Shown: positions 5,753 through 20,287 of the stretch, one piece after another | Numbering within the stretch: position 1 is the first letter of the stretch | How the letters are laid out: each line of letters starts with the position of its first letter | From: a bacterium | GTDB lineage: Bacteria; Vulcanimicrobiota; Vulcanimicrobiia; Vulcanimicrobiales; SCRA01 | Reading direction: 5' to 3' | Length of the DNA: 44,538 bases | NCBI GenBank assembly: GCA_004298675.1 | Contig: SCRI01000017.1 | Span: 1-44,538 of the forward strand | Position numbers and translations under genes: made by a program | The notes under the pieces: generated by a model | Database searches by the model: none | Told to the model about the DNA's origin: nothing | What the model saw: only the letters and a program-made list of their open reading frames with translations

Positions 5753-6916
5753 CTACAGCGCGGAAGCCGATCCCCACGAGAGGCGCTTACGCGCCTCTCG
5801 TGCCGTTTGCAGCAGCTGCGCGGGCGGCGTACCGGGATCGCGCAGTAGCGTGAAGTGGCCCATTTTACGGCGCGCCAGGGCTTGCCGCTTTCCATACAGG
5901 TGCAGGGAAACGGCCGGGTCGCTCAAGAGTTCCGGTATCCCCAACAGGCGGTCGCCGGAGCCGCTGCCCAGGATATTCACCATGACCGCGCTGCTGGTCA
6001 GCCGCGGTGCCGGCAGCGGGAGGTCGCAGATCGCGCGTAGTTGCGCTTCGAACTGCGAGAGGGTGCAGGCGTCGATCGTGTAGTGGCCGCTATTGTGCGG
6101 ACGCGGCGCGATCTCGTTGACCAGCAGCTCCCCGTCTGGGAGCAGAAAGAACTCCACGCAGAATGTCCCAACGAAATCCAGTCCCAGGGCGATGCGCTGG
6201 GCAATCTCGCGGGCGCGCTCCTCTACCGGTGCTGGGACGCCGGCGGGCACGACCGAGAATGCGAGGATATTCTCCTCGTGAATGTTTTGGGTGAGTGGAT
6301 ACGTCACCATTTGCCCGCTCTCGCTGCGTGCGCAGATGATGCCGAGCTCGCGGGTGAACGGTGCGAAGCGCTCCCAAATCAACTCGCGCCCGCGCAGGCG
6401 CTCGAAGGCCTGGAGAGCCTGAGCGCGCGTGTGCACCACCGCCTGCCCCTTGCCGTCATAACCGCCGGCGGCCGTCTTGATGACGGCGGGATAGCCGACG
6501 TGCTCGCCTGCCGACGTCAAGTCGTCCGCGGTCGTCACGGCTGCGAACGGCGTGACGGCGATGTCCTGGTCGCGCAGGAAGCGTTTTTCGCGTAACCGGT
6601 GCTGCGCGACACGTAAGGCGCGGCTGCCGGGGGCGATGCGCACGCCGGATCCCTCGAGCAGTTCCACCGCGCGCACGTCGACGTTTTCGAATTCGTAGGT
6701 GACGGCGTCGCACATCACTCCCAAGCGCTGGACCGCCGCCAGGTCTCCGTACGATGCCACGACCTGTTGGTCGGCGATCTGCCCGCACGGGGAGTTGGGC
6801 GTTGGATCGAGCATCGCCACCCGATACCCCATCCGCTTGGCATCCAGCGCCAGCATGCGCCCCAACTGACCGCCACCCAAGATACCGATCGTCGCCTCCG
6901 GCGAGATCGCCCTCAC
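5753..6916 (-). CDS. purK: 5-(carboxyamino)imidazole ribonucleotide synthase
   Basis: A 387-residue ATP-grasp enzyme that carboxylates aminoimidazole ribonucleotide with bicarbonate and ATP to give N5-CAIR in purine synthesis. The N-terminus has the PurK nucleotide-fold signature [20 protein letters not shown], followed by LDPTPNSPC and the ATP-grasp core ([16 protein letters not shown], with the ATP-binding lysine). [31 protein letters not shown] is the metal-binding end of the ATP-grasp domain, with its conserved E, N and R-H residues. The length is normal. The start overlaps the purE stop by 4 bases (ATGA), so the pair is translationally coupled, in the order purE-purK. Confidence 0.96.
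5776..5801. terminator. 11-bp inverted repeat at the icd/purK convergence, possible terminator
   Basis: ACGAGAGGCGC (5776-5786) pairs perfectly with GCGCCTCTCGT (5791-5801) around a TTAC loop. It lies 27 bases after the icd stop but inside the last codons of the convergent purK gene. On the plus strand only a weak T-run (GCCGTTTGC) follows, so it is at best a partial intrinsic terminator for icd. Confidence 0.5.
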
Positions 6917-7416
6917 GCGTGCTCCTCTGGCGGCGCCACGGCCTCGGCCGCCAACGTGCGCGCGTAGGTCTCGAGCGCGCCATGGAGTTCGGGGTATGCC
7001 AGCGCGAGCATGCGCACCGCGAGCAGCGCGGCGTTCTTGGCGTTGCCGATGGCTACCGTGGCTACCGGCACGCCGCCCGGCATCTGCACGATCGAGAGCA
7101 GGGAGTCCAACCCCTTGAGAGCCTTCGAGGTAACCGGCACGCCGATGACCGGCAGCGTGGTCTTGGCCGCCGTCATCCCCGGCAGATGTGCCGCACCGCC
7201 CGCCCCCGCGATGATGATGCGCAGGCCGCGCGCGCGTGCGCCTGCGGCGTACTCGTACATCAGATCGGGCGTGCGATGAGCGGAGACGACGCGCTGTTCG
7301 TAGGGGATGCCGAAATCACGCAGAACGGCGCCGGCCGGTTCCATCGTGGGGAGGTCGGAACGGCTACCCATGATGATACCAACCAGCGGGTGATCCGTCG
7401 GAAGCGAGACCTTCAT
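6913..7416 (-). CDS. purE: N5-carboxyaminoimidazole ribonucleotide mutase
   Basis: A 167-residue class I PurE that rearranges N5-CAIR made by PurK into CAIR. The family core is complete: [13 protein letters not shown] near the N-terminus (substrate phosphate site), [15 protein letters not shown] with the catalytic His of the SAHRTP motif, and [19 protein letters not shown]. The later [23 protein letters not shown] closes the octamer-forming fold. It is the first gene of the purEK pair. Only 18 bases separate its start from the divergent moeA gene, so the promoters must overlap or lie inside the neighbouring coding region. Confidence 0.96.
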
Positions 7417-7434
7417 GGCCGACCTTCTACGACT

Positions 7435-8721
7435 ATGCCGGAGCCCGAGCCTCTAGCCGCGAAGTTCGGCTCCATGCCCGAGCTGTTCACGGTGGTCGCG
7501 CCGGATGAGGCGTTCGAGCGGCTGCGCGCGGTTCTCAAGCCCGTGCCGCGGGCGGAAAACGTGCCGCTGGAACGGGCTCTGGGGCGCACGCTGGCGCGCG
7601 AGATCGTGGCCCGGGAGGCGCTTCCACCTTTCGCGCGCAGCGCCATGGACGGCTTCGCGGTGCGCGCGCGCGACACGCTTGGAGCAGCGGAGACGTCGCC
7701 GGTCTATTTGCGCTTGGCGGGCGAGTCGCTCATGGGAAGCTTACCATCGTTTGAGGTCCTCCCCGGCAGTTGCGCGCGCATCCACACGGGGGCGGCGCTG
7801 CCACGCGGCGCGGATGCCGTGGTGATGATCGAAGAGACCAATGCACTGCCTCGTGACGAGATCGAGGTGCTGGCATCCGTTGCGCCGGGTGAGGACGTGA
7901 TCGCGGCTGCCGAAGATCTAGCCCCCGGTGAGCGTGCCTTTGCGGCGGGGCAACGGCTACGCGCGGTCGACGTAGGCGGGCTGGCGGCGTTGGGCGTGGT
8001 CGAGGTTGCGGCGGCGGTGGCTCCGCGCGTGGCGGTGATCTCGACTGGCGATGAGCTCGTGGCGCCGCAGGCGCAGCCGCGCCCCGGCGAGATCCGCGAC
8101 GTCAACGGCGCGCTCATCTGCGCGCTCCTCGAGGGTGCTGGGGCGTTGGTGCGCCACGCCGGCATCGTCCGTGACGACGAAGCGTTGTTGGCTGCCGCGG
8201 CCGCGCGTGCCCTTGAAGAGAGCGACGTGGTCGTCGTCAGCGCCGGCTCTTCGGTTAGCGCACGCGATGCCACGGCACGTGCTTTTGCGCGTCTGGGTCC
8301 GCCGGGGATCTTGCTGCACGGCCTCGCGGTAAAACCGGGTAAGCCCACGCTCGTCGCCTGCGCCGGCGGTCGCCCCGTCTTCGGCCTTCCCGGCAATCCC
8401 GTGTCGGCCGCCGTGCTCTGCTGGCGTCTAGTGCTCCCGGCAGTTCGTGTGCTGCTGGGGCAGAGCGTGCCGTACGGCGGGCTCGGTCCCGCGGCGCACG
8501 TGGCGCGTCTCGCGCAGAACGTACCCTCGCGCGCGGGACGCGAAGATTACGTTCCCGTCACGCTCTCATGGGGTGCCGGCGGTGCGCCGCCCGAGGCCCG
8601 TCCCGCCTTCGCCAAGTCGAACCTGATCTTCTCGTTGGTGCGCTCGGAGGGCTTGTTGCGCGTTCCGCGCGACGCGGGCGGACTGCGGGCCGGTGAGCTC
8701 GCGGAAATCTACACCTGGTGA
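7435..8721 (+). CDS. moeA: molybdopterin molybdenumtransferase MoeA (first paralogue)
   Basis: A 428-residue MoeA/gephyrin-E-like protein, which inserts molybdate (or tungstate) into adenylated molybdopterin. Domains: MoeA N-terminal part with [13 protein letters not shown] and the DAVVMIEET loop, then the MoCF-biosynthesis (MPT-binding) domain with [26 protein letters not shown] and [10 protein letters not shown], and a short C-terminal MoeA domain IV. All metal- and MPT-contacting loops look intact. ATG 7435 is used; ATG 7474 in the same frame is the main alternative, since the conserved part starts after it. The gene overlaps the second MoeA gene by 4 bases (GTGA). The cofactor would serve the Mo/W enzymes encoded further downstream. 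Confidence 0.92.
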
Positions 8722-10640
8722 GTGAGACCGAACGCTCGCTCTACCTGCATGACGTGCCGCTGGAAGAGGCGCGCGCGCGTTTCGAGGCGTTGCTGCAGCG
8801 CAGCGGCGCGGCGGCGGCGCTGACCGGGGAGACCGTCGCGCTACGGGATGCGCTCGACCGCGTGGCCGCGGCCAATGTCGGTGCACGCCTCTCGTCGCCG
8901 CACTACCACGCCTGCGCGATGGATGGCATCGCGGTCTTGGCCGCTCGCACGGCCGGGGCCAGCGAGGCCGCTCCCGTACGTTTGCAGCTAGGGACGGAGG
9001 CGGTCAGCGTCGACACCGGCGATCCGCTGCCGCCCGATTGCGATGCCGTGGTGATGGCGGAGGTCGTGGAGAGCCTGCCCGAAGGCCGGGTGCTGCTGCG
9101 CGCGCCGGTGGCGCCCTGGGAGCACGTGCGCCCCATCGGTGAGGACGTCGTGGCCTCCGAGTTGGTGGTGGCCGCCGGCGATCGCTTGCGCGCGGTAGAT
9201 CTCGCCGCGCTCGCCGCTGCCGGAGTCACGCACCTGGAGGTAGTGCGTCGCCCGCGCGTTGCCGTCATCACGACCGGCAGCGAGCTCGTGGCTCCGGATG
9301 TACAACCGCGGCCTGGCGAGATTCTCGACTCCAACGGCGTGCTGCTCGCCGCCTCCGTCGAGGCCTGGGGCGGCGTGCCGGTCGCCCAGGAGCGCGTGCC
9401 GGACGATCTGGCTGCGCTGGCGCACGCGCTGGAGGTGGCGCTCGAGCAGTGCGACGCGGTGGTGATCAATGCGGGGTCGAGCGCGGGTCGAGAGGACTAC
9501 ACGGCCCGCGTCATCGCGGAGCGTGGGGACGTGGTGGTGCACGGCGTGGCGATCCGTCCGGGGCATCCGCTGATCCTGGGCGCGGCACGCGGCAAGCCGG
9601 TACTCGGCATTCCGGGTTATCCGGTGAGTGCGGCGCTGTGCGCGGAGCTTTTCCTGCGGCCCCTCGTGGAGCGGCTGTCGGGACGCCGGTCTGCGCAGCC
9701 CGAGCGCGTCCAGGCGCGTCTGGCACGCAAGCTGTTCTCGCCGCTCGGCGAAGAAGAGTACGTGCGCGCCGTGGTCGCACCCGTGGACGGCACGCTTACG
9801 GCGTTACCGCTCAAGCGCGGTGCCGGAGCCATCAGCTCCCTCGCGCGGGCTAATGCCCTGCTGCTCTCGCCGCGTGAGAGCGAGGGCTACCGGCAGGGAG
9901 AGTTCGCGCCGGCGCTGCTGCTGCGCTCGCCCGGGCGCGTCGCCCGCACGCTGCTGGCGGCGGGCTCACACGACGTCGCGCTCGACGCGCTGAGCGCCGC
10001 GCTGCGCGCGCGCGGCTACGATCTCGTCTCCTCCAACGTGGGATCGATCGCGGGTTTGGTCTCGCTCAAGGCCCGGGCCTGCCATTTGGCCGGCACGCAT
10101 GTACTGGATCCCGCCAGCGGAACGTACAACGAGCTCGCGGTGGCCCACTACTGCGAAGACGAACGCGTGGCGCTGATCGGTTTCGTGGAGCGCGTGCAAG
10201 GGCTGATCGTGGCGCACGGCAATCCGTTGCAGCTGGAGTCCGTCGCCGACGTGGCGCACACGGGCGCACGTTTTGTGAACCGGCAACGCGATTCGGGAAC
10301 GCGAATCCTGCTGGACTATCTGCTGGCACAGGCGGGTCTGCGTCCAGAAAGCCTCAACGGATACGAGCGCATCGAATTCACCCACACAGCCGTGGCCGCG
10401 CTGGTGCGCGACGGCGCTGCCGACTGCGGTGTGGGGATTCTGGCCGCCGCGCAGGCGCTGGGCTGCGGCTTCGTGCCGTTGGCTCAAGAGCGTTACGAAC
10501 TTGCGACGCTGCCTTCGCGTTTAGAGGAGGAAGCGTTCCGCGTGCTGCTGCAGACGTTGCGCGAACCCAGGTTGCGCGAGGAGATCGTGGCCTTTGGGGG
10601 CTACCGCGTCGAGCATAGCGGCGAGATCCGCATGCGCTAG
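8718..10640 (+). CDS. MoeA-like molybdotransferase fused to a substrate-binding-protein-like domain
   Basis: A 640-residue two-part protein. Residues ~1-405 are a complete MoeA: YHACAMDGIAVLA, DCDAVVMAE, RVAVITTGSELVAPD, VINAGSSAGREDYTAR (MPT-binding) and LGIPGYPVSAA. Residues ~415-640 match the PBP-like domain (PF12727 type) related to molybdate-binding LysR/ModE-associated modules, with GSHDVALDAL, SNVGSIAGLVSL, HVLDPASGTYN and DCGVGILAAAQALG. No signal peptide is present, so this domain would act in the cytosol, probably as a metal-oxyanion sensor or donor for the MoeA half (inference). It starts at GTG 8718 overlapping the first moeA stop. A division of labour between Mo and W is possible for the pair. 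Confidence 0.9.
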   Translation: MSETERSLYLHDVPLEEARARFEALLQRSGAAAALTGETVALRDALDRVAAANVGARLSSPHYHACAMDGIAVLAARTAGASEAAPVRLQLGTEAVSVDTGDPLPPDCDAVVMAEVVESLPEGRVLLRAPVAPWEHVRPIGEDVVASELVVAAGDRLRAVDLAALAAAGVTHLEVVRRPRVAVITTGSELVAPDVQPRPGEILDSNGVLLAASVEAWGGVPVAQERVPDDLAALAHALEVALEQCDAVVINAGSSAGREDYTARVIAERGDVVVHGVAIRPGHPLILGAARGKPVLGIPGYPVSAALCAELFLRPLVERLSGRRSAQPERVQARLARKLFSPLGEEEYVRAVVAPVDGTLTALPLKRGAGAISSLARANALLLSPRESEGYRQGEFAPALLLRSPGRVARTLLAAGSHDVALDALSAALRARGYDLVSSNVGSIAGLVSLKARACHLAGTHVLDPASGTYNELAVAHYCEDERVALIGFVERVQGLIVAHGNPLQLESVADVAHTGARFVNRQRDSGTRILLDYLLAQAGLRPESLNGYERIEFTHTAVAALVRDGAADCGVGILAAAQALGCGFVPLAQERYELATLPSRLEEEAFRVLLQTLREPRLREEIVAFGGYRVEHSGEIRMR

Positions 10641-10975
10641 CTAGGGTCGCGTGTATAGCGTGTGTATTCGACCCGCTCGAGCGTCAGCAATCCCTCGCTC
10701 ACCATCTCGCCGATCAGCGGGACCAGCGCGTCGATGCGCTCCTCGTCATCGACGACTTCGATGAGGATCGGCAAGTTGGGCCTCAGTGAGAACACGCTGG
10801 CTTGATGCAGCTCGCGATGCGCGCCGAAACCTTCGACGCCGCGAAAGACGGTGGCGCCGGCGGCGCCGTTGCGGCGCAGCACGTCGACGATGGCGGTGTA
10901 CAGCGGCTGTCCGTGCCAGCGATCGTTCTCGTCGACGAAGATGCGCAGGAGCCTTCCGAAAGCGCTTACCTTCAA
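10637..10975 (-). CDS. DUF190 (PII-like) protein, first of two
   Basis: A 112-residue DUF190 protein. This family adopts a PII-like ferredoxin fold and is often encoded beside crcB-type fluoride channels. Family features: LLRIFVDENDRWHGQPLYTAIVDVLRR, then the GAAGATVFRGVEGFGAH segment and LPILIEVVDDEERIDALVPL. Start is TTG 10975, with AAGGAG 7 bases upstream inside the end of the preceding DUF190 gene. It is the last gene of a crcB-DUF190-DUF190 unit and its stop touches the convergent moeA-fusion gene. It shares a recognisable pattern with its neighbour, so the pair probably arose by duplication. The biochemical role of DUF190 is unproven. Confidence 0.85.
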   Translation of the reverse strand: MKVSAFGRLLRIFVDENDRWHGQPLYTAIVDVLRRNGAAGATVFRGVEGFGAHRELHQASVFSLRPNLPILIEVVDDEERIDALVPLIGEMVSEGLLTLERVEYTRYTRDPS

Positions 10976-10979
10976 CGGG

Positions 10980-11294
10980 TTACTCCTTCACGGTCTCGAT
11001 GCGTTCGCTCGTGACCAGCGCCTCGACGAGCATCTCGTCGAAGAGCGCGAAGAGCGCCTCGACACGCTCCTCCTGCAGCACGATCTCGATGACCACCGGA
11101 AGATCCTGTGACAGCTCGAAGATGCGCGCGGTGCGCATGCCGGCGTGCGAGCCGTAACCAGCGATGGCTTTGAACGTAACACAGCCGGGAAAGCCGCCGG
11201 CTGCCAAACGCAGGAGCAGGGCCCGATGCAAGGGCCGGCCGTGATGACGCTCGGCTTCGCGTACGTAGACGCGTACGAGCCGCGCCGCGCTCAA
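10980..11294 (-). CDS. DUF190 (PII-like) protein, second of two
   Basis: A 104-residue DUF190 protein with the family pattern VRVYVREAERHHGRPLHRAL, then FPGCVTFKAIAGYGSHAG and LPVVIEIVLQEERVEALFAL. The start is TTG 11294, overlapping the crcB stop by 4 bases (TTGA), so it is probably translationally coupled to the channel gene. Its GYGSHAG loop corresponds to the GFGAH loop of the downstream paralogue; in PII-like folds this region lies near the ligand cleft. A regulatory or accessory role for the CrcB channel is suggested by the gene order only. Confidence 0.85.
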   Translation of the reverse strand: MSAARLVRVYVREAERHHGRPLHRALLLRLAAGGFPGCVTFKAIAGYGSHAGMRTARIFELSQDLPVVIEIVLQEERVEALFALFDEMLVEALVTSERIETVKE

Positions 11295-11692
11295 CGTAGC
11301 GCTCCCAACAGCCGCGCCGCAATCAACCCAAGATAGGCGGCGGCCAGCCCCCCGCCCAGGCTCGCCATGGTGTAGACGAACGACGCCATCAAGGCGCGCT
11401 CACCGGCGAGGGTCAGCGCTTCGTTGGTGAAGGTGGAGAAGGTGGTGTAGCCGCCCACGAACCCGACCGTCAGCAGGACGCGCGCGGCAGGGCTCAGCGT
11501 GACGACGCGAGTGGTGGAGAGCTCGGCGATCAGTGCAAGGATGAAACTGCCGCTGACGTTGATGAAGAGTGTGGCCCACGGAAAGCCGGGGCCCACGCGC
11601 TCGGTCAACGCGACGGAGACGACGTAGCGCAACATGGAGCCACTGGCTCCGCCGAGGCCTACCGCCAATACGAGCGAGAATCGCAGGTTCAC
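11291..11692 (-). CDS. crcB: fluoride ion channel/transporter CrcB (Fluc)
   Basis: A 133-residue membrane protein of the CrcB/Fluc family, which exports fluoride as a dual-topology dimer in the inner membrane. Motifs: GGASGSMLRYVVS in helix 1, the pore segment TLFINVSGSFILALI (with the conserved Asn), and GFVGGYTTFSTFTNEAL, which carries the TTFSTF polar track and Phe residues. Four hydrophobic helices are visible. A single crcB copy implies a homodimer. Start is GTG 11692. The gene leads a crcB-DUF190-DUF190 unit. I looked for a fluoride riboswitch upstream and did not see one; instead a nested hairpin sits between this gene and the MFS carrier upstream. Confidence 0.93.
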   Translation of the reverse strand: MNLRFSLVLAVGLGGASGSMLRYVVSVALTERVGPGFPWATLFINVSGSFILALIAELSTTRVVTLSPAARVLLTVGFVGGYTTFSTFTNEALTLAGERALMASFVYTMASLGGGLAAAYLGLIAARLLGALR

Positions 11693-11767: not shown

Positions 11768-13024
11768 CTACGCGGTCACGGCCCCTTTCACGCCGATAGC
11801 CTTCTGCGGCGGCTTGGTGATCAGCGGCAGAATGATCGAGAGCAGCAGCATGATCGCGAACGGTACCAGTGCTCCGTGGTAGGAACCGGTGAGATCGCGA
11901 ATGCGGCTCCCGAATAGCGGACCGGCCAATCCGGCCACGCCCCAGGCGGTGAGTATCCAGCCGTAGTTGACGCCCATGTACTTCACGCCGAAGTAGTCGG
12001 CCGTGAACGACGGCATCGTTCCGAAGCCTCCGCCGTAGCAGAGGAGCACGATGGAGAAGAGCAGGACGAACGCGCTCGGTGAGTGGCCCGTAACGTTGAG
12101 GATCAGGAAGACCACCACCTGCACGCCATAGATCAACCCGTAGGCCCAACGGCGGCCGATGCGGTCGCTGACGGTGCCCCAAAACCATCGCCCCACGCCG
12201 TTGAAGATCGACATGATGCTGACGAGTCCGGCCGCTGCGACCGGCGTCATACCGGCCAGCTCCACGCCCATCGGCGCAGCCTGCGAGATGACGAAGATGC
12301 CCGCGGTAACGTTCAGGAACAGCATGCCCCACAGCGCGTAGAATTGCCAGCGCCCGAACATCTCCTCGGGCGGAAAGTCGGCGCCCGACGACTTCGAAGC
12401 CTGCACCGGCGGCGGTGTCCAGCCGGGAACGGTATAGCCTTCCGGCGGATTACGCAGAATCGAGGCGAAGATCAGGCCGATGATCAGGTAGATGATCCCA
12501 GCGTAGAGGAACGTGTGCAGGACACCAACGTCGCGGATCAGCGGGTTGAGCACCGGCCGCGCGAAGATGAACGCGCCCAAGCCGAAGCCCATCACGACGA
12601 AGCCGCTGGCGAAGCCGCGCCGGTCGGGGAACCACTTCGTGACCATGGTGACCGCGCAGATGTACACCATGCCCAGCCCCAGGCCACCGATGACGCCGTA
12701 GGTGAGGTAGAGCCACGGCCAGTTGAGTGCTCCTGTGCCTAGCCCGGCGAGGATGTTCCCCACCGACCAGAAGAGTACGCCCGCGATGGTGACCGTGCGC
12801 GGCCCCGCGCGATCCTGCCAGCGGCCGCCGATCACGGCGCCCACGCCCAGGAAGAAGATGGCAAGTGCAAATGCCCACGACGTCGTCGTGGCGTTCCATC
12901 CGAAGATCGCTTCGAGCGGCTTGACGTGGACGCTCCACGCGTAGACCGTCCCGATGGTCATGTTGACGATCGCGCCCGAGATCGCCATGAGCCATCGGTT
13001 CGGCGTCGCTGCTGTCGGTGACAT
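11768..13024 (-). CDS. MFS transporter of the oxalate:formate antiporter (OFA) family
   Basis: A 418-residue, 12-helix major facilitator of the OFA type. Helix 1 has GAIVNMTIGTVYAWSV, followed by ALAIFFLGVGAVIGGRWQDRAGPR, the MFS motif A loop between helices 2 and 3. GLGLGMVYICAVTMVTKWFPDRRGFASG is the very characteristic OFA segment, and GRWFWGTVSDRIGRR is the second motif A. OFA carriers exchange oxalate, formate or related carboxylates. The gene follows the formate dehydrogenase genes on the same strand, 15 bases after the NrfD-like subunit, with GGAGGA 6 bases before its ATG. This supports import of formate or oxalate for that enzyme, but the substrate is inferred. Confidence 0.88.
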   Translation of the reverse strand: MSPTAATPNRWLMAISGAIVNMTIGTVYAWSVHVKPLEAIFGWNATTTSWAFALAIFFLGVGAVIGGRWQDRAGPRTVTIAGVLFWSVGNILAGLGTGALNWPWLYLTYGVIGGLGLGMVYICAVTMVTKWFPDRRGFASGFVVMGFGLGAFIFARPVLNPLIRDVGVLHTFLYAGIIYLIIGLIFASILRNPPEGYTVPGWTPPPVQASKSSGADFPPEEMFGRWQFYALWGMLFLNVTAGIFVISQAAPMGVELAGMTPVAAAGLVSIMSIFNGVGRWFWGTVSDRIGRRWAYGLIYGVQVVVFLILNVTGHSPSAFVLLFSIVLLCYGGGFGTMPSFTADYFGVKYMGVNYGWILTAWGVAGLAGPLFGSRIRDLTGSYHGALVPFAIMLLLSIILPLITKPPQKAIGVKGAVTA

Positions 13025-13039
13025 GCGATGTCCTCCGTA

Positions 13040-14065
13040 TCACTCTGGTTGACGTAAGGCGGCACGCGGGTCATCGGCCGAGGCCCTGCCCGCTTCGATC
13101 AGGGACTTCCGCAAGACGTACCCGCCGTAGAGCGTGAGGCCCGCGGCGATCAGCGTCTTGACAACGTTGGGTTTGCCGGCATGGCTTGGTTTGGTGAAAA
13201 GGCTGGCGAGATTGAGCAGGGCCGGAACCGCGATCCCGCCCACGAGCGTATTGGCACGCAATCGCTGTCCGGTCTCTCCGCCGAACAGTGCGTTGCCCGT
13301 CTCGCCTGCCGACGAGGCGTAGTCAACGAGCAGTACGCCCTCGGTCAACGACGCGACGAACTCGATGCGCTCGAGCTTGTTGATGCTTCTCGCGGAACCG
13401 CCGCGGAGCGCCAAGAGAGCCGCTTGGGCGGCGCAGGCCGTGGCGACGGCCGAGCAGACGAAGATGGCCGGGATCTGGCGGCGTCCGCTGTTCCACACGG
13501 GGACGGCCGTAGCCGAGATCAGCACGCCGGTGTATGACCCGGTGAAGGCAGCGGCCAGCGCGTGCGCCAGATTGCGTGGGCCGCGCGGCAGGAGGCCCCC
13601 GAGCAGCCACGGCACACGCCCGCGTCCGCGCAACTCCTCCAGCACGGCGATCGCGGAGAGGCCTGAGAAGCTCAGGAGGGACCAAACGCCGACCGACATC
13701 GGAGACTTCAGTTTGAGGATGCGGGTCATGTTCAGAAAGCGCTCTGGGCGCCCGAGATCCTTGATCAGCAGCAGCGGGCTGATCGCAGCGCCCACGAGCG
13801 CCAGCCAGCGGCCGTTGCGCACGACCGCTTCATCGCCTTCAGCGCCGAACGTGTCGGCGGCAGCGGCCAGAATGGCGCTGCCGCTCATGAGTCCGCCGAT
13901 GTAGAAGTACCAGATGATCTCCCAGCGCCAGTGTGCGCCGCGCAGCACCGGGTGATCGTAGTACGAGCGCTGATTGCGCCCGAAGCCGCCGTCGCCCCGC
14001 GCTAGACTCGCGGCGACGGCATCCGGCGTGATCTGGACGATGTCGCCGTGGGTGACGCCAGCCAT
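13040..14065 (-). CDS. NrfD/PsrC-family membrane subunit of formate dehydrogenase
   Basis: A 341-residue polytopic membrane protein of the NrfD/PsrC family, the quinone-reactive anchor of molybdopterin oxidoreductase complexes. The soluble N-terminus (about 45 residues) contains GGFGRNQRSYYDHPVLRGAHW, followed by WEIIWYFYIGGLMSGSAILAAAAD, a typical first NrfD helix, and GRWLALVGAAISPLLLIKDLGRPERFLNM, the strongest family signature. Further hydrophobic helices include GSYTGVLISATAVPVW. The start ATG 14065 overlaps the stop of the iron-sulfur subunit by one base, so the frame open further upstream is not used. Together with the two upstream genes it forms a catalytic/iron-sulfur/membrane complex passing electrons from formate to quinone. 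Confidence 0.88.
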   Translation of the reverse strand: MAGVTHGDIVQITPDAVAASLARGDGGFGRNQRSYYDHPVLRGAHWRWEIIWYFYIGGLMSGSAILAAAADTFGAEGDEAVVRNGRWLALVGAAISPLLLIKDLGRPERFLNMTRILKLKSPMSVGVWSLLSFSGLSAIAVLEELRGRGRVPWLLGGLLPRGPRNLAHALAAAFTGSYTGVLISATAVPVWNSGRRQIPAIFVCSAVATACAAQAALLALRGGSARSINKLERIEFVASLTEGVLLVDYASSAGETGNALFGGETGQRLRANTLVGGIAVPALLNLASLFTKPSHAGKPNVVKTLIAAGLTLYGGYVLRKSLIEAGRASADDPRAALRQPE

Positions 14066-14838
14066 CAGCGGCTCCTGAACGCCTGCATCGCCACGATTGC
14101 CAGCGCTGCGGTGGCGAGAAACCCGCTGAGATAGGCCACGGGCTGGTAGGTTGAGGGAAGCACGGGTTTGGGCGGAAGGTTGAAGACTTCGGGGCGATCG
14201 GTGATGAGGAAGAACGCGTTGAGATCGCCGACCGAGGTGTCTTCGTCGACGCCGTAGAGCCGCGCCGGCACGTTGCGCGCCAGCAGCTCCTCGGTGCGCC
14301 GCCGGGCGCGCTCCTTGAGTTGCTCGACGGGCCCGAATTGGATCGAGTCCGTGGGACACGCCTTGGCGCAGGCGGGTTCAATGCCATCCTTCATGCGGTC
14401 GTAGCAGAGCGTGCACTTCTGCGCCACGCCCTGGTCCGGCTCGAGTGCGATGACGCCGAATGGGCAAGCGGGCACGCAGTAGCCGCAACCGTTACAGATA
14501 TCCGGCTGGACGTAGACGGCACCGTACTCGTTGCGGATGATGGCGCCGGTGGGACAGGCCTCCATGCAGCCGGCGTGCGTGCAGTGTTTGCAGACATCCG
14601 ACATCATCACCCAGCGCGACTCGGCTGGATTGATACGATCGAACTGCTCGACGAAGTCCACGTGGCGCCAGGTCGTCGCTGAGAGGCGTCCGGTGTTGTC
14701 GTAGGAGTTCCCGGAGAGCGCATAACCGTCCGAGGGCAATTGATTCCACTGCTTGCAGGCAACCTCGCACGCCTTGCACCCGATGCAGAGCGTCACGTCG
14801 GTAAAAAATCCCATGTCGGGGGAAGCGTCGTCGATCAT
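14065..14838 (-). CDS. fdhB: formate dehydrogenase iron-sulfur (beta) subunit
   Basis: A 257-residue ferredoxin-like electron-transfer subunit. Four Cys clusters fit four [4Fe-4S] centres: CIGCKACEVAC (18-28), CKHCTHAGCMEACPTGAI, CNGCGYCVPACPFGV, and CTLCYDRMKDG followed by ACAKACPTDSI. A hydrophobic stretch near the C-terminus (VAYLSGFLATAALAIVAMQAF) is a membrane anchor, as in FdnH/FdoH. The start overlaps the end of the catalytic subunit by 4 bases (ATGA) and the stop overlaps the NrfD start by 1, so all three subunits are coupled. The Cys spacing and the context with a selenocysteine FDH support this subunit rather than another oxidoreductase. Confidence 0.94.
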   Translation of the reverse strand: MIDDASPDMGFFTDVTLCIGCKACEVACKQWNQLPSDGYALSGNSYDNTGRLSATTWRHVDFVEQFDRINPAESRWVMMSDVCKHCTHAGCMEACPTGAIIRNEYGAVYVQPDICNGCGYCVPACPFGVIALEPDQGVAQKCTLCYDRMKDGIEPACAKACPTDSIQFGPVEQLKERARRRTEELLARNVPARLYGVDEDTSVGDLNAFFLITDRPEVFNLPPKPVLPSTYQPVAYLSGFLATAALAIVAMQAFRSR

Positions 14839-17800
14839 GACCGTTCCTCGTGACGATGCGTGTAGCGAGAGGCCGCCATGATCGTCTCCGGCGGCACGAT
14901 CTCCGGCGAGGTTGCCTCATCGGCGGATTTCGAACTCACGGCGCCCGCGCGCGTGGGCGTCCCCAGCGGGTTGCGTTGACCCAACGGTACGTCGTCGTCG
15001 GCGGCGTAGGGACGGGCGGCGCTGCGGCGTCCGGGGCGAATGTTGCACGTGAATGCCTTGCCCTCGTGGATCGAGACGTTGGGGTCGGCGACCATGGGGG
15101 GAAGGTCGTTGGGGGTGTCGCCCGTGACGACGCCTTGCGTGCCCCAGTGCCACGGCAAGCCGATCTGGTGGACGAAGCGTCCCTTGCCCAGCCGGATCGG
15201 CTGCATGCGCCCGGTAACCAGCGCCTTGGCCTCCACCTCGGCGCGCGCCGTCTCGATGGTCACCCACTCGCCGTTGCGGATGCCGCGCTCTACCGCCAAC
15301 TCCGGTGAGATCTCGCAGAAGAGCTCCGGCTGCAACTCCGCCAGCCACGGCAGCCAGCGTGACATCGCGCCACTGAGGTGGTGTTCGGTGAGGCGATACG
15401 TCGTGATGATGTAGGGGTAGCGCGGATCGCCGATGTCGTGGTAGGGGTTGTCGCGCCGGCGCCACTGCTTGAGCACTGGGTTGTATTGTGCGTTGGGATA
15501 GAGCGCGTTGCCGACGGGCGACTCCTTGGGCTCGTAGTGCGCCGGCAGCGGTCCGTCGACGGTGCCCGCGGGCGCGAAGAGCTGCACCACCCCATCGGGG
15601 TTCATGATGAAGGGCGAGGCGCCGTCGTGCGCGTCGATACCGCTGCCGTCGGCCTTGGCCGGCGTGTCCGGCGCCTTGCCGACGGGGAAGTCGGGGACGT
15701 CATAGCCCACCCACTTGCTCTGCGCCGCGTCCCACCAGACGTACTTCTTGCGTTCGCTCCAGGGCTTGCCTTCGGGGTCCGCCGAGGCGCGGTTGTAGAT
15801 CTGCCGGCGGTTGGAGGGCCACGACCAAGCCCACTCCAGCGAGACCCAGCGGTCGCCTTTACGCCGGCGCGTGAGGTTCTCGCCGGGTGAGGGATACATG
15901 CCGGAGTATATCCAGCTACCGCAGGCGGTCGAGCCGTCGTCCTTGCATTCGGAGAAGCCCTTGAGCTGCTCGCCGGTGTCGAGGCGGTAGCCGTTCATCT
16001 CGCGCATCACGGCCTCGACGTCCGGATCGCCGAGCGCGCGCTCGTGTGCGTCGGGATGATCGTAGTCCCAGGTCATATCGAGGACGGGGCGGTCGCGCCG
16101 CTGCGTGGAGTCGGCGTAGAGTTGCTTGAGGCGCTTGCCCAACTGATAGACGAAACCCAAGTCGCTGCGGCAGTCGCCGGGCGGATCGACGGCCTTCTCG
16201 TGGAACTGCACCAGCCGCATCGTGTTGGTGAGCGTCCCCGCCTTCTCCGCGATGGCAGCACTGGGCAGGAAGAAGACCTCCGTGGGGATCTGCTTGGGAT
16301 CCACGCCTTCGCGCTTCCAGAATGCCGCGGACTCGATCTCGAAGAGGTCGCGCACGACCAGCCAATCGAGCTTGGCCATGGCGTTGCGCTGAAACTCCGC
16401 GTTCTGCCCGCCCACGGCCGGGTTCTGGCCGAAGAGGATGAGGCCGCGCACCGTGCCGTCCTTCATACCCACGAACATCGGCATGTGGGAATGGTCGCCG
16501 GTGTTCTTCGGCAGGTAGTCGTAGGCCCAGTCGTTGTCCTTGGCGGCGGCGTCACCGTACCACGCCTTCATGAACGAGACCGCGTACTTGGGGAAGTTGT
16601 TCCACCAACCCGTGCGCGGGGTCTGATTCTTACACCAGGTGGCGAAGTCGATCTCGTTCTTCTCCAGCGTGGGTGCCTTCAAGTAGCCCGGGAAGAGATC
16701 GTACAGCGTGGCGTTATCGGTGGAGCCCTGAATGGAGGCATGGCCGCGCAGCGCCATGACGCCACCGCCGGGGCGCCCCATGTTGCCCAGCAACGCTTGC
16801 AGAATGCCGCAGGCGCGGATATTCTGTACGCCGATACTATGCTGCGTCCAGCCCATGGCATAACAGAAGACGGCCGTACGCTCGCGCCCGCTGTTGGTGC
16901 AGAGCAGCTCGGCCAGCTCCAGGAATCGCTCCTGGGGGGAGCCGCAGATGCGCTCCACCATCTCCGGCGTGTAGCGCGCGTAGTGACGGCGCAGAATGTT
17001 CAGCACGCAACGCGGATGCGTCAGCGTGAGATCGCGCTTGGCGCGTGGGGCGTCATGCTCGCCACCGGGCTCCAGTTCGTAACGCCACGTCACCGGATCG
17101 TAGATCCCACGCTCGGCGTCGAAGCCGCTGAAGAGGCCTTCGAGGTCCTCGCTGTCGCGGTAGTCCTCGTTGACGATGAACGACGCGTTGGTGTAGCTGA
17201 CCACGTACTCCTTGAAGTAACGCTCGTGCTCCAGCACGTAGTTGATCAAGCCGCCCAAGAATGCGATGTCGGTACCGGAGCGCAACGGTACGTGTAGATC
17301 GGCTAGAGCGCTGGTACGTGTGAAGCGTGGGTCGACGTGAACCACCTTGGCGCCCTTGGCTTTGGCCTGCATGACGAAGCGGAAGCCCACCGGGTGGCAC
17401 TCCGCGAAATTGCTGCCCTGAATGACGATCAGATCGGAGTGTTGGAGATCCATCAGGAACGTCGTGGCGCCGCCGCGGCCGAAGGAGGTGCCTAGACCAG
17501 GCACCGTCGAGCTATGTCATATCCTGGCCTGGTTCTCGACGAAGCACATGCCAAGACTGCGGAAGAGCTTGGCCATGAGGTAGTTCTCTTCGTTGTCCAG
17601 GGTGGCGCCGCCCAGCGAAGCCAGTGCCATGGTACGATTGACGCGGCGCCCGTGCTCGTCTTCCTCTTGGAACGTCGCGTCGCGCGTCTCCTTGACGCGT
17701 TGCGCGATGCGCTCCATCGCCCACTCCAGCGACACCTCCTGCCACGCCGTTGCTCCGGGCGCGCGGTACTTGCACGTGGTCCAGCGCGCGGGGTTGACGT

Positions 17801-18092
17801 GGAGCTGGAAGGTAGCCGCCCCCTTCGGGCAGAGGGTGCCCGCGTTGATCGGTGAGGCTGGGTTGCCCTCGATGTCGATGATGGTATTGCCGCGATGGTA
17901 GACCAGCGTGGCACAGCCGACCGCGCAATACGGGCAGACGCTCGGCGTGACTTTGGCGTTGGCGATGCGCGGGCGCAATTCGCGCGAGCGTTCGCTTAAC
18001 GGATTGGGAAGCACGCCGACGCGCTCGCGTAAGGTATCTGCGACGCGCGCGAAGAGTTGCTGAACACCCAGTGAGTCCTTCTTGGTCGCCAT
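14835..18092 (-). CDS. fdhG: formate dehydrogenase catalytic (alpha) subunit, selenocysteine-containing
   Basis: A 1085-residue Mo/W-bis-MGD formate dehydrogenase read through an in-frame TGA (17517-17519), codon 192. The N-terminal part has the [4Fe-4S] motif VCPYCAVGC...LCPKG; the residues before the TGA (FVENQARI) and after it (HSSTVPGLGTSFGRG) align with the region around Sec196 of E. coli FdnG, and a SECIS hairpin follows. Later segments include IQGSNFAECHPVGF, AMGWTQHSIGVQNIRA, NMGRPGGGVMALRGH and the C-terminal MGD-binding domain. ATG 18092 was chosen (GGGGGGA upstream; the next conserved residues start soon after). No twin-arginine signal is visible, so a cytoplasmic-facing site is likely. 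It oxidises formate to CO2, passing electrons to FdhB and the NrfD subunit. A gene finder that treats TGA as stop would split it. Confidence 0.95.
17487..17519 (-). promoter_or_regulatory. UGA selenocysteine codon and bacterial SECIS hairpin in fdhG
   Basis: Reading the minus strand: TGA (17519-17517), 11 bases, then GGTGCC (17505-17500), the loop TGGTCTA (17499-17493), and GGCACC (17492-17487). The 6-bp stem has an apical GGTCT, the sequence SelB reads in the E. coli fdhF SECIS, where the upper stem also begins 11 bases after the UGA. Both spacing and loop match that element. It directs UGA decoding as selenocysteine; selA, selB and selC are not in this window. Confidence 0.88.
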
Positions 18093-18208
18093 GCCGACGA
18101 TCCCCCCCGGAAGAACGGTCTCTGCAACGGGTTTGAGGGTTCGCGAGGGCGAATGCATTCTCCCGGGCAAAAGCTTTGGGCGCGAAGCTTCTCACTGTGC
18201 GGAACCTC

Positions 18209-18493
18209 ATGGAATCGAAGCACATGGTACGCTTGGAGCTCTATGGAATGGCGCGCCACCTGGTTGGCGCAGGCGACATGCGCGTACCCGTTGCGCCGGA
18301 TGCAACGGTGGGTGCGCTGTTGCGCGAGGCCGCGCGGCTGGCTCCGGCGCTGGTGGGTGTCGTCCTGGAAGCCGACGGAACGCCGATTGCGCCGAATTAC
18401 GTCTTGCTCGACGGTCGCGGCACTGCGGCGCTCGATGACCCGGTCAGCGACGGCGATCGTCCCTGTCTGTTCGTGCTGGCTTCGGGGGGGTAG
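18209..18493 (+). CDS. MoaD/ThiS-type ubiquitin-like sulfur carrier protein
   Basis: A 94-residue protein of the MoaD/ThiS beta-grasp fold. It has MVRLELYGMARHLVG at the first strand, ATVGALLREAARLAPAL around the helix, and ends in the Gly-Gly tail (FVLASGG) that becomes a thiocarboxylate carrying sulfur for molybdopterin dithiolene formation. It lies 6 bases before the aldehyde oxidoreductase gene. A MoaD-like gene beside a tungsten AOR is a recurring arrangement, so it probably serves the pterin cofactor of that enzyme. ATG 18209 is used; ATG 18224 (starting MVRLELYG) is an equally plausible start, and neither has a strong ribosome-binding site. ThiS function cannot be excluded, but no thiamine gene is near. 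Confidence 0.8.
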   Translation: MESKHMVRLELYGMARHLVGAGDMRVPVAPDATVGALLREAARLAPALVGVVLEADGTPIAPNYVLLDGRGTAALDDPVSDGDRPCLFVLASGG

Positions 18494-18499
18494 CGCGCG

Positions 18500-20287
18500 A
18501 TGTCGAGCCTGCCCCGCGATCTGCTCGAGATCGACCTCGAGACGCGGGCCTGGCACCGCAGCCGCCTCGATGATGCTGTTTTCGAAGCGGCTCCCGGCGG
18601 TACGGCGCTAGCTGTACGGTTGTTGGACGAGCGAATCCACGGACCGCTGGATCCGCTCTCGGCCGAGAATCCGCTCTGCTTCGCCGCGGGTCCGTTCGCC
18701 GGCTCGAGCGTCCCCGCCGCCACGAAACACGCCCTTGCCACGGTTTCGCCGCTGACGGGGCTGGTCAACGACACCCTCTCGTCGAGCCATTGGTCGGCAT
18801 CGCTGCGCCGCATGGGTTTGGCGGCGCTCGTGATCAATGGCCGCGCACGCACTCCGACGGCCGTGGTCGTCGACGAGCGCGGCGTGGAGTTTCGCGCCGC
18901 GCGGGGGCTTGCAGGGGTCTCCGCCGCCGAGGCGGGCCGCATGCTGCGCGCCGAGCTCGGCGATATGCGCGCACGCGTCTGTGCGATCGGTGCGGCTGGG
19001 GAACGCGGTGTGAGTTTCGCGGTTGTCGAGAACGACGGGCGCCAAGCGGGGCGCGGCGGAGCGGGGGCCGTCTTCGGGGCTAAGAACCTCAAAGCCATCG
19101 CGCTGCGTGGCGGTGGTGAGGTGCCGGTAGCCGATCCGGATGCCACGGCGCGCTTTGCGCGCGTGCTGCGCGAGCGCGCTCTTGGGCCCAAGACCGCTAA
19201 GTACCGCGTCTTGGGAACCGGCGCCAACATGCGCGTGCTCGATCGCATGGGCCTGCTGCCCACGCGCAACTTCAGCGCCGCCGTTTTCGAGGGCACGGAG
19301 CGGGTGACGCCCGAACGGGCGCGCGAGTCACCGGGAGAGTACGTGGAGTATCGCGCCGGCTGTGCCAACTGTCCCGTGCAGTGCGAGCACCGCTACGTGC
19401 GCCGCGATGGCGACCGGCGCCGCGCTGCCGCCAGCGAATACGAGTCGACCTGGGCGTTCGGCCCCAACTGCGGCGTCGACGATCTCGACGCCGTGCTCGC
19501 AGCCGTGGAGCGCTGCGACCGCTATGGCTTGGACACGATCTCCACCGGGGGGGTGATCGCGTGGACGATGGAGTGCGTGGAGCGCGGCATCTTGAGCGCG
19601 GCGCAGGTGGGCGTAGAGGCGCGCTTCGGCCACGCCGCCGCCATGCTCGAGCTGATCGATGCCATCGCCGCGGCGCGGGGCTTCGGCGCGCTCTTGGGGC
19701 GTGGCGTGCGGGCGGCGGCCGCTGCCGTGGGCGCTGGCAGCGAGCGCTTCGCTATGCACTGCAAAGGCTTGGAGATGCCGGGCTACGAGCCGCGCGGCCT
19801 GCCGACGTATGCGCTCGGTCTAGCCGTCTGCACGCGCGGTGCCTGCCACAATCGTGCCGCTACCTACGACCTAGACCTACGCCGCCCCACGGCCACGTAT
19901 GGTGCCGAGGAGCGCGCGCGAGCCTGCGTCGAGCAAGAGGATTACGCCGCGGCGTGGGACACGTTGCTGCTGTGCAAGTTCGTACGCGACTGCTTTGAGG
20001 ATTTCTGGGAGGAGGGCTCGCGCCTGCTACAGGCAGCCGTGGGCGGCAACTGGGACGCCGCACGTTTGCGCGCGGTGGCCGCGCAGAGTTGGGCGCGTAA
20101 GCGGGCGATCAACGTCCGCCTCGGCTGGAGGCCGGAGGACGACGTGCTGCCGGCACGCCTGTTCGACGAGCCGCTGCGGGGCGGCCCAGGCGCGGGTCTG
20201 CGACTGGAGCGCTCCGCGCTCGAGGAACTCAAGCAGGCCTATGCTCGGGAGCGCGCCAAGTACGCGGCCGCAGAACTCCTTGGCTGA
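18500..20287 (+). CDS. tungsten-dependent aldehyde:ferredoxin oxidoreductase
   Basis: A 595-residue AOR-family enzyme. These oxidise aldehydes to carboxylates (or reduce acids) with a tungsto-bispterin and one [4Fe-4S] cluster, passing electrons to ferredoxin. Signatures: GRGGAGAVFGAKNLKAIA (184-201) in the N-terminal domain, the cluster ligands C288, C291 and C295 in GCANCPVQC, the pterin-binding EYESTWAFGPNCG, KGLEMPGYEPRG, and the second pterin motif with the fourth cluster Cys, DTLLLC (487-492). The length is close to the archaeal AOR. No ferredoxin or AorA-type partner is adjacent; the MoaD-like gene 6 bases upstream is the only linked partner. The exact aldehyde substrate is unknown. 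Confidence 0.93.
   Translation: MSSLPRDLLEIDLETRAWHRSRLDDAVFEAAPGGTALAVRLLDERIHGPLDPLSAENPLCFAAGPFAGSSVPAATKHALATVSPLTGLVNDTLSSSHWSASLRRMGLAALVINGRARTPTAVVVDERGVEFRAARGLAGVSAAEAGRMLRAELGDMRARVCAIGAAGERGVSFAVVENDGRQAGRGGAGAVFGAKNLKAIALRGGGEVPVADPDATARFARVLRERALGPKTAKYRVLGTGANMRVLDRMGLLPTRNFSAAVFEGTERVTPERARESPGEYVEYRAGCANCPVQCEHRYVRRDGDRRRAAASEYESTWAFGPNCGVDDLDAVLAAVERCDRYGLDTISTGGVIAWTMECVERGILSAAQVGVEARFGHAAAMLELIDAIAAARGFGALLGRGVRAAAAAVGAGSERFAMHCKGLEMPGYEPRGLPTYALGLAVCTRGACHNRAATYDLDLRRPTATYGAEERARACVEQEDYAAAWDTLLLCKFVRDCFEDFWEEGSRLLQAAVGGNWDAARLRAVAAQSWARKRAINVRLGWRPEDDVLPARLFDEPLRGGPGAGLRLERSALEELKQAYARERAKYAAAELLG

Follow-up and report, generated by a model that had tools for sequence, protein, structure and literature searches.

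A predicted selenocysteine formate dehydrogenase and its SECIS hairpin in a little-studied bacterial phylum

Among bacterial selenoproteins, selenocysteine (Sec) formate dehydrogenase (FDH) is the most widespread (PMC13188914), and multicomponent membrane-bound Sec FDHs with selenium-dependent formate removal have been described in A. chiangmaiensis DSM 45062 (PMC7176365). The published model of the bacterial SECIS element specifies a loop of 3-9 nt, a stem of 4-16 bp, a G in the first two loop positions, a distance of 16-37 nt from the UGA and a minimum free energy of at most -7.5 kcal/mol (PMC13188914). In the E. coli SECIS, U17 must be bulged (PMC8659212). Both E. coli and Methylorubrum depend on the FdhD sulfurtransferase for an active FDH, and a 2023 review already stated that some FDH organisms are without fdhD. 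Here we analysed a window of 44,538 nucleotides, the whole stretch of DNA under study, which almost certainly encodes the catalytic subunit of a Mo/W-bisMGD FDH with an NrfD-type membrane partner, its in-frame TGA being decoded as Sec by means of a SECIS element. Among the papers searched, none combined "Eremiobacter-" and "selenocysteine".

The catalytic gene lies in an open frame of the minus strand, 18170 to 14835, with the TGA inside it; the initial annotation had given the right coordinates and left the strand unsaid (Table 1). Position 18092 holds the likely start codon, an ATG (MATKKDSLGV...); counted from it, Sec falls near residue 192. Gene callers that treat TGA as a stop would break the gene, and the list of open reading frames, in which none spans the TGA, fits the split that the initial annotation foresaw. 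In profile searches FdhA passed the cut-offs of both TIGR01553 (1102.8 bits, cut-off 814.2) and NF041513 (1516 bits, cut-off 1400). The latter, "formate_DH_Act", places the alpha subunit in the same family as the FDHs of that model. The A. chiangmaiensis enzymes, from another phylum, are by family among the closest known counterparts. By sequence, the best PDB relative is 1h0h, an FDH alpha subunit of Desulfovibrio gigas aligned over residues 69-1045, nearly full length; it comes from another phylum and has other partner subunits than the FDH here. E. coli FdnG shares 43% protein identity with FdhA. Alignment with FdhF and FdnG shows that the catalytic residues are retained, namely Sec, the next His and the equivalents of FdhF Arg333 and Lys44. 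The FDH likely faces the cytoplasm, because the likely N terminus of FdhA, unlike that of FdnG, shows no twin-arginine (Tat) motif.

Table 1. Predicted features of the FDH locus (window coordinates)
Feature	Position	Strand	Basis or remark
SECIS hairpin (predicted), 7-bp stem GGUGCCU/AGGCACC, loop GGUCU	17487..17505	-	11 nt after TGA; fold, covariation, RF01989
In-frame TGA, predicted selenocysteine codon	17517..17519	-	Aligned with known Sec; stop in all homologous loci
fdhA, formate dehydrogenase alpha (catalytic) subunit	14835..18092	-	TGA predicted to be read through as Sec
fdhB, iron-sulfur (4Fe-4S ferredoxin-type) beta subunit	14065..14838	-	Fer4_11 and related domains
NrfD-like membrane subunit	13040..14359	-	PF03916 NrfD, 80 bits; gene order same in Eremiobacterota relatives
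MFS carboxylate transporter adjoining the FDH operon	11768..13024	-	NF049980, 422.8 bits, over cut-off

The beta subunit scored 174 bits against TIGR01582 (FDH-beta), which is under that model's cut-off. The membrane subunit of FDH-N is a cytochrome b; the one here is of the NrfD type. The 5' end of its listed frame overlaps fdhB, and the true start probably sits downstream. The transporter fell below the cut-offs of the oxalate/formate antiporter models. The neighbourhood of alpha, beta, NrfD and transporter genes recurs in Eremiobacterota relatives, where the MFS transporter is often present in varying position.

Several other genes surround this unit. Genes at 18176-20287 diverge from fdhA and code for a small MoaD-like protein and for a candidate tungsten enzyme, an aldehyde ferredoxin oxidoreductase (AFOR_N/AFOR_C); we dropped both as members of the FDH unit, as they adjoin FDH only within the genus and not in two further genomes (G004 and G050). 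A tandem MoeA pair is found near the operon at 6754-10640, its second member fused to a PBP_like domain (PRK14498), and one MoeA may serve Mo and the other W. Between this pair and a CrcB fluoride channel, two short frames (10637-11322) gave no family matches. In one genus mate (G002) a second copy, 48% identical, comes after the first of these frames; a tandem pair is therefore likely, and the second frame listed in the window may not be the real one.

Alignment bears out the initial assignment of the TGA to Sec196 of E. coli FdnG, and it also places the codon at Sec140 of FdhF. The site is a stop codon in 110/110 homologous loci (103 TGA, 7 TAG); these loci comprise 80 from genome contigs and 30 from relatives, with the locus of the window and a few duplicated loci among them. 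Relatives with Cys at this position had been named in the initial annotation as evidence that would speak against selenocysteine, and none was found among the 110 loci, genus mates included. The seven TAG rows all come from Geodermatophilaceae (Modestobacter, Geodermatophilus and Blastococcus) and carry the same hairpin, in agreement with an earlier report of UAG-Sec recoding in Blastococcus (PMC5330540). Candidate further Sec codons in some relatives were rejected, since the extra stops lie close to either end of the match (query residues 27 and 1050-1067), apparently outside the real genes.

Read 5' to 3' on the minus strand, the element is TGA CATAGCTCGAC GGTGCCT GGTCT AGGCACC, where the spacer CATAGCTCGAC is 11 nt long. 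The pattern TGA-N11-stem7-RGTCT-stem7 has one occurrence in the window, which is this site. The stem consists of seven perfect Watson-Crick pairs, to which the folded structure adds a G-U for a total of eight. The spacing and the GGTCT motif described in the initial annotation both stand; however, it had counted six pairs, and because there are seven the exposed loop is not UGGUCUA but GGUCU, which shrinks to GUC (3 nt) in the fold of minimum energy. With a loop of 5 nt beginning GG, a stem of 7-8 bp, a distance of 18 nt and a folding energy of -11.8 kcal/mol, the hairpin falls within all the published bacterial SECIS limits (PMC13188914). RNA folding, which had been proposed as a check, does give the stem, but energy alone is unremarkable (the 33-mer has a z of -1.9) and, in longer stretches, uninformative (z about 0). 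A 401-base search with the Rfam model RF01989 (SECIS_3) gave a full-length alignment from the TGA on, at 36.8 bits (E 7.5e-7), below the gathering score of 63; SECIS_3 was seen only in this short-stretch search, and at gathering thresholds Rfam had no match anywhere in the window.

The initial annotation also likened the element closely to that of E. coli fdhF. This holds for the loop, GGUCU in both, and for the spacer, whose 11 nt are shared with fdnG/fdoG as well, although the loop of those two is AGUCU. Furthermore, G23 and U24 of the apical loop, counted from U1 of UGA, occupy the same positions as in E. coli. The likeness ends at U17, which is bulged in E. coli and here pairs with A31 within the continuous 7-pair stem. 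U17 is paired in 51/51 rows of the subfamily (with A in 42 and with G in 9). As judged from these alignments, the element fits the general bacterial SECIS model but not the E. coli bulged type, and recognition by SelB would have to differ in detail from that of E. coli because U17 is paired.

The genome to which the window belongs (3.03 Mb, 98.5% complete) contains the corresponding machinery, with profile scores all over cut-off for selA (542.9 bits), selB (302.9, pieces joined), selD (380.3) and tRNA-Sec (71.7), the last with the anticodon TCA (UCA). This gene set supports the selenoprotein synthesis predicted in the initial annotation, which had named a lack of selA, selB or selC as evidence against it. 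By association, not from a marker-gene tree, the genome is placed in one order with a genome of Candidatus Eremiobacterota, a group that NCBI lists under the phylum Vulcanimicrobiota. The selA and selB genes are adjacent on contig 71, tRNA-Sec lies about 10 kb further and selD is on contig 43. This selD has an in-frame TGA of its own, in SSCAG-Sec-ASK, followed by a stable hairpin whose loop differs from that of the FDH SECIS. Among 61 genomes of the order, selA is present in 38/39 with this FDH and in 13/22 without it (Fisher p 2e-4, a statistic that ignores relatedness); the single FDH-bearing genome without selA is 83% complete. The sequence itself shows the FDH gene, the hairpin and all four Sec genes. 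In the mechanism that we propose, SelA would make Sec-tRNA-Sec(UCA) using selenophosphate from SelD, SelB, bound to the hairpin that follows the TGA after 11 nt, would deliver the tRNA, and Sec would serve as a ligand of the active-site metal. From the family to which the protein belongs, we infer the decoding, the metal ligation and the enzyme activity of the FDH.

Could the TGA instead be a nonsense mutation or an assembly error, leaving a pseudogene? The open reading frame is indeed interrupted under table 11, but genus mates whose protein is about 90% identical share the codon, as do more than 100 loci of several phyla, the remaining frame is open and conserved, the hairpin covaries and the Sec gene set is full, so that we consider this explanation extremely improbable. 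Just as improbable is that an ordinary amino acid, such as Trp under a changed code, is inserted at the TGA without selenium. The open frame by itself would be compatible with it, whereas the position of the codon at the metal-ligand Sec of FDH and the presence of a UCA-anticodon tRNA-Sec together with selA, selB and selD argue against it.

Very unlikely too, if slightly less so, is that Sec is inserted while the hairpin follows from the conserved peptide TVPGLGT alone and does not serve as the signal for SelB. This peptide fixes most stem bases, and seven pairs arise in 8.4% of synonymous draws; a 7-pair Watson-Crick stem together with the loop, however, arose in 0.67% of draws in which the peptide was kept and codons were taken from the gene's own usage. 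Across 51 distinct aligned sequences, 96.1% of stem cells are paired, whereas shuffles give 81.8% and slid controls no more than 55.5%. The covariation score reaches 0.406; shuffles give 0.161 +/- 0.015, with 0/500 attaining the observed value, and slid controls stay at or below 0.083. The slid controls allow for relatedness and the shuffles do not. Two-sided changes are found at four stem pairs in these 51 sequences. Most change falls in two wobble-wobble pairs that change together, 18/30 (GC, CG, UA, AU and wobble types) and 21/27 (CG, GC, UA). In addition, the loop is GGTCT in 68/80 distinct sequences, though 9.7% of the Gly codons of these genes are GGT. Because the stem covaries at wobble positions and the loop persists in spite of codon bias, the comparison indicates that the hairpin is selected as RNA. 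For a hairpin beyond chance, the decisive evidence is comparative, not thermodynamic, and Sec insertion directed by a SECIS is the reading that we retain.

Maturation to an active FDH is not assured, because the E. coli enzyme needs fdhD for its activity and searches here did not recover that gene. It (PF02634) was not found in any of the six genomes with the window-type Sec FDH (our own, three genus mates, G050 and the single-contig genome G004). With the FdhD protein of a relative as query, matches up to E 10 included nothing credible; one weak FdhD-like match in our own genome (E 0.16) was rejected, as its open frame is not recognisable as FdhD. In contrast, fdhD is present in 32/33 of the other FDH-bearing genomes of the order and in 39/43 FDH-bearing genomes from elsewhere. 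Five FdhA rows from these six genomes form one clade (100/100) beside fdhD-bearing Eremiobacterota. A single loss is probable, and the p of 2e-6 for the absence of fdhD in the clade therefore overstates the association. Tentatively, and with rather less than even confidence, we suggest that fdhD was lost once in the ancestor of the six genomes and that the Sec FDH of the clade may be matured without FdhD, by another sulfurtransferase or with no usual sulfido ligand. The absence of fdhD is less ordinary than the FDH itself, and a Sec-FDH clade without it could reveal if FdhD can be replaced in sulfurating the cofactor.

The feature itself is an ordinary one, and this FDH joins the best-known family of bacterial selenoproteins. 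As its kind is the commonest bacterial selenoprotein (PMC13188914), the gain lies in better annotation for a phylum that has been little studied. This organism is very probably a selenoprotein maker, and its annotation should say so.
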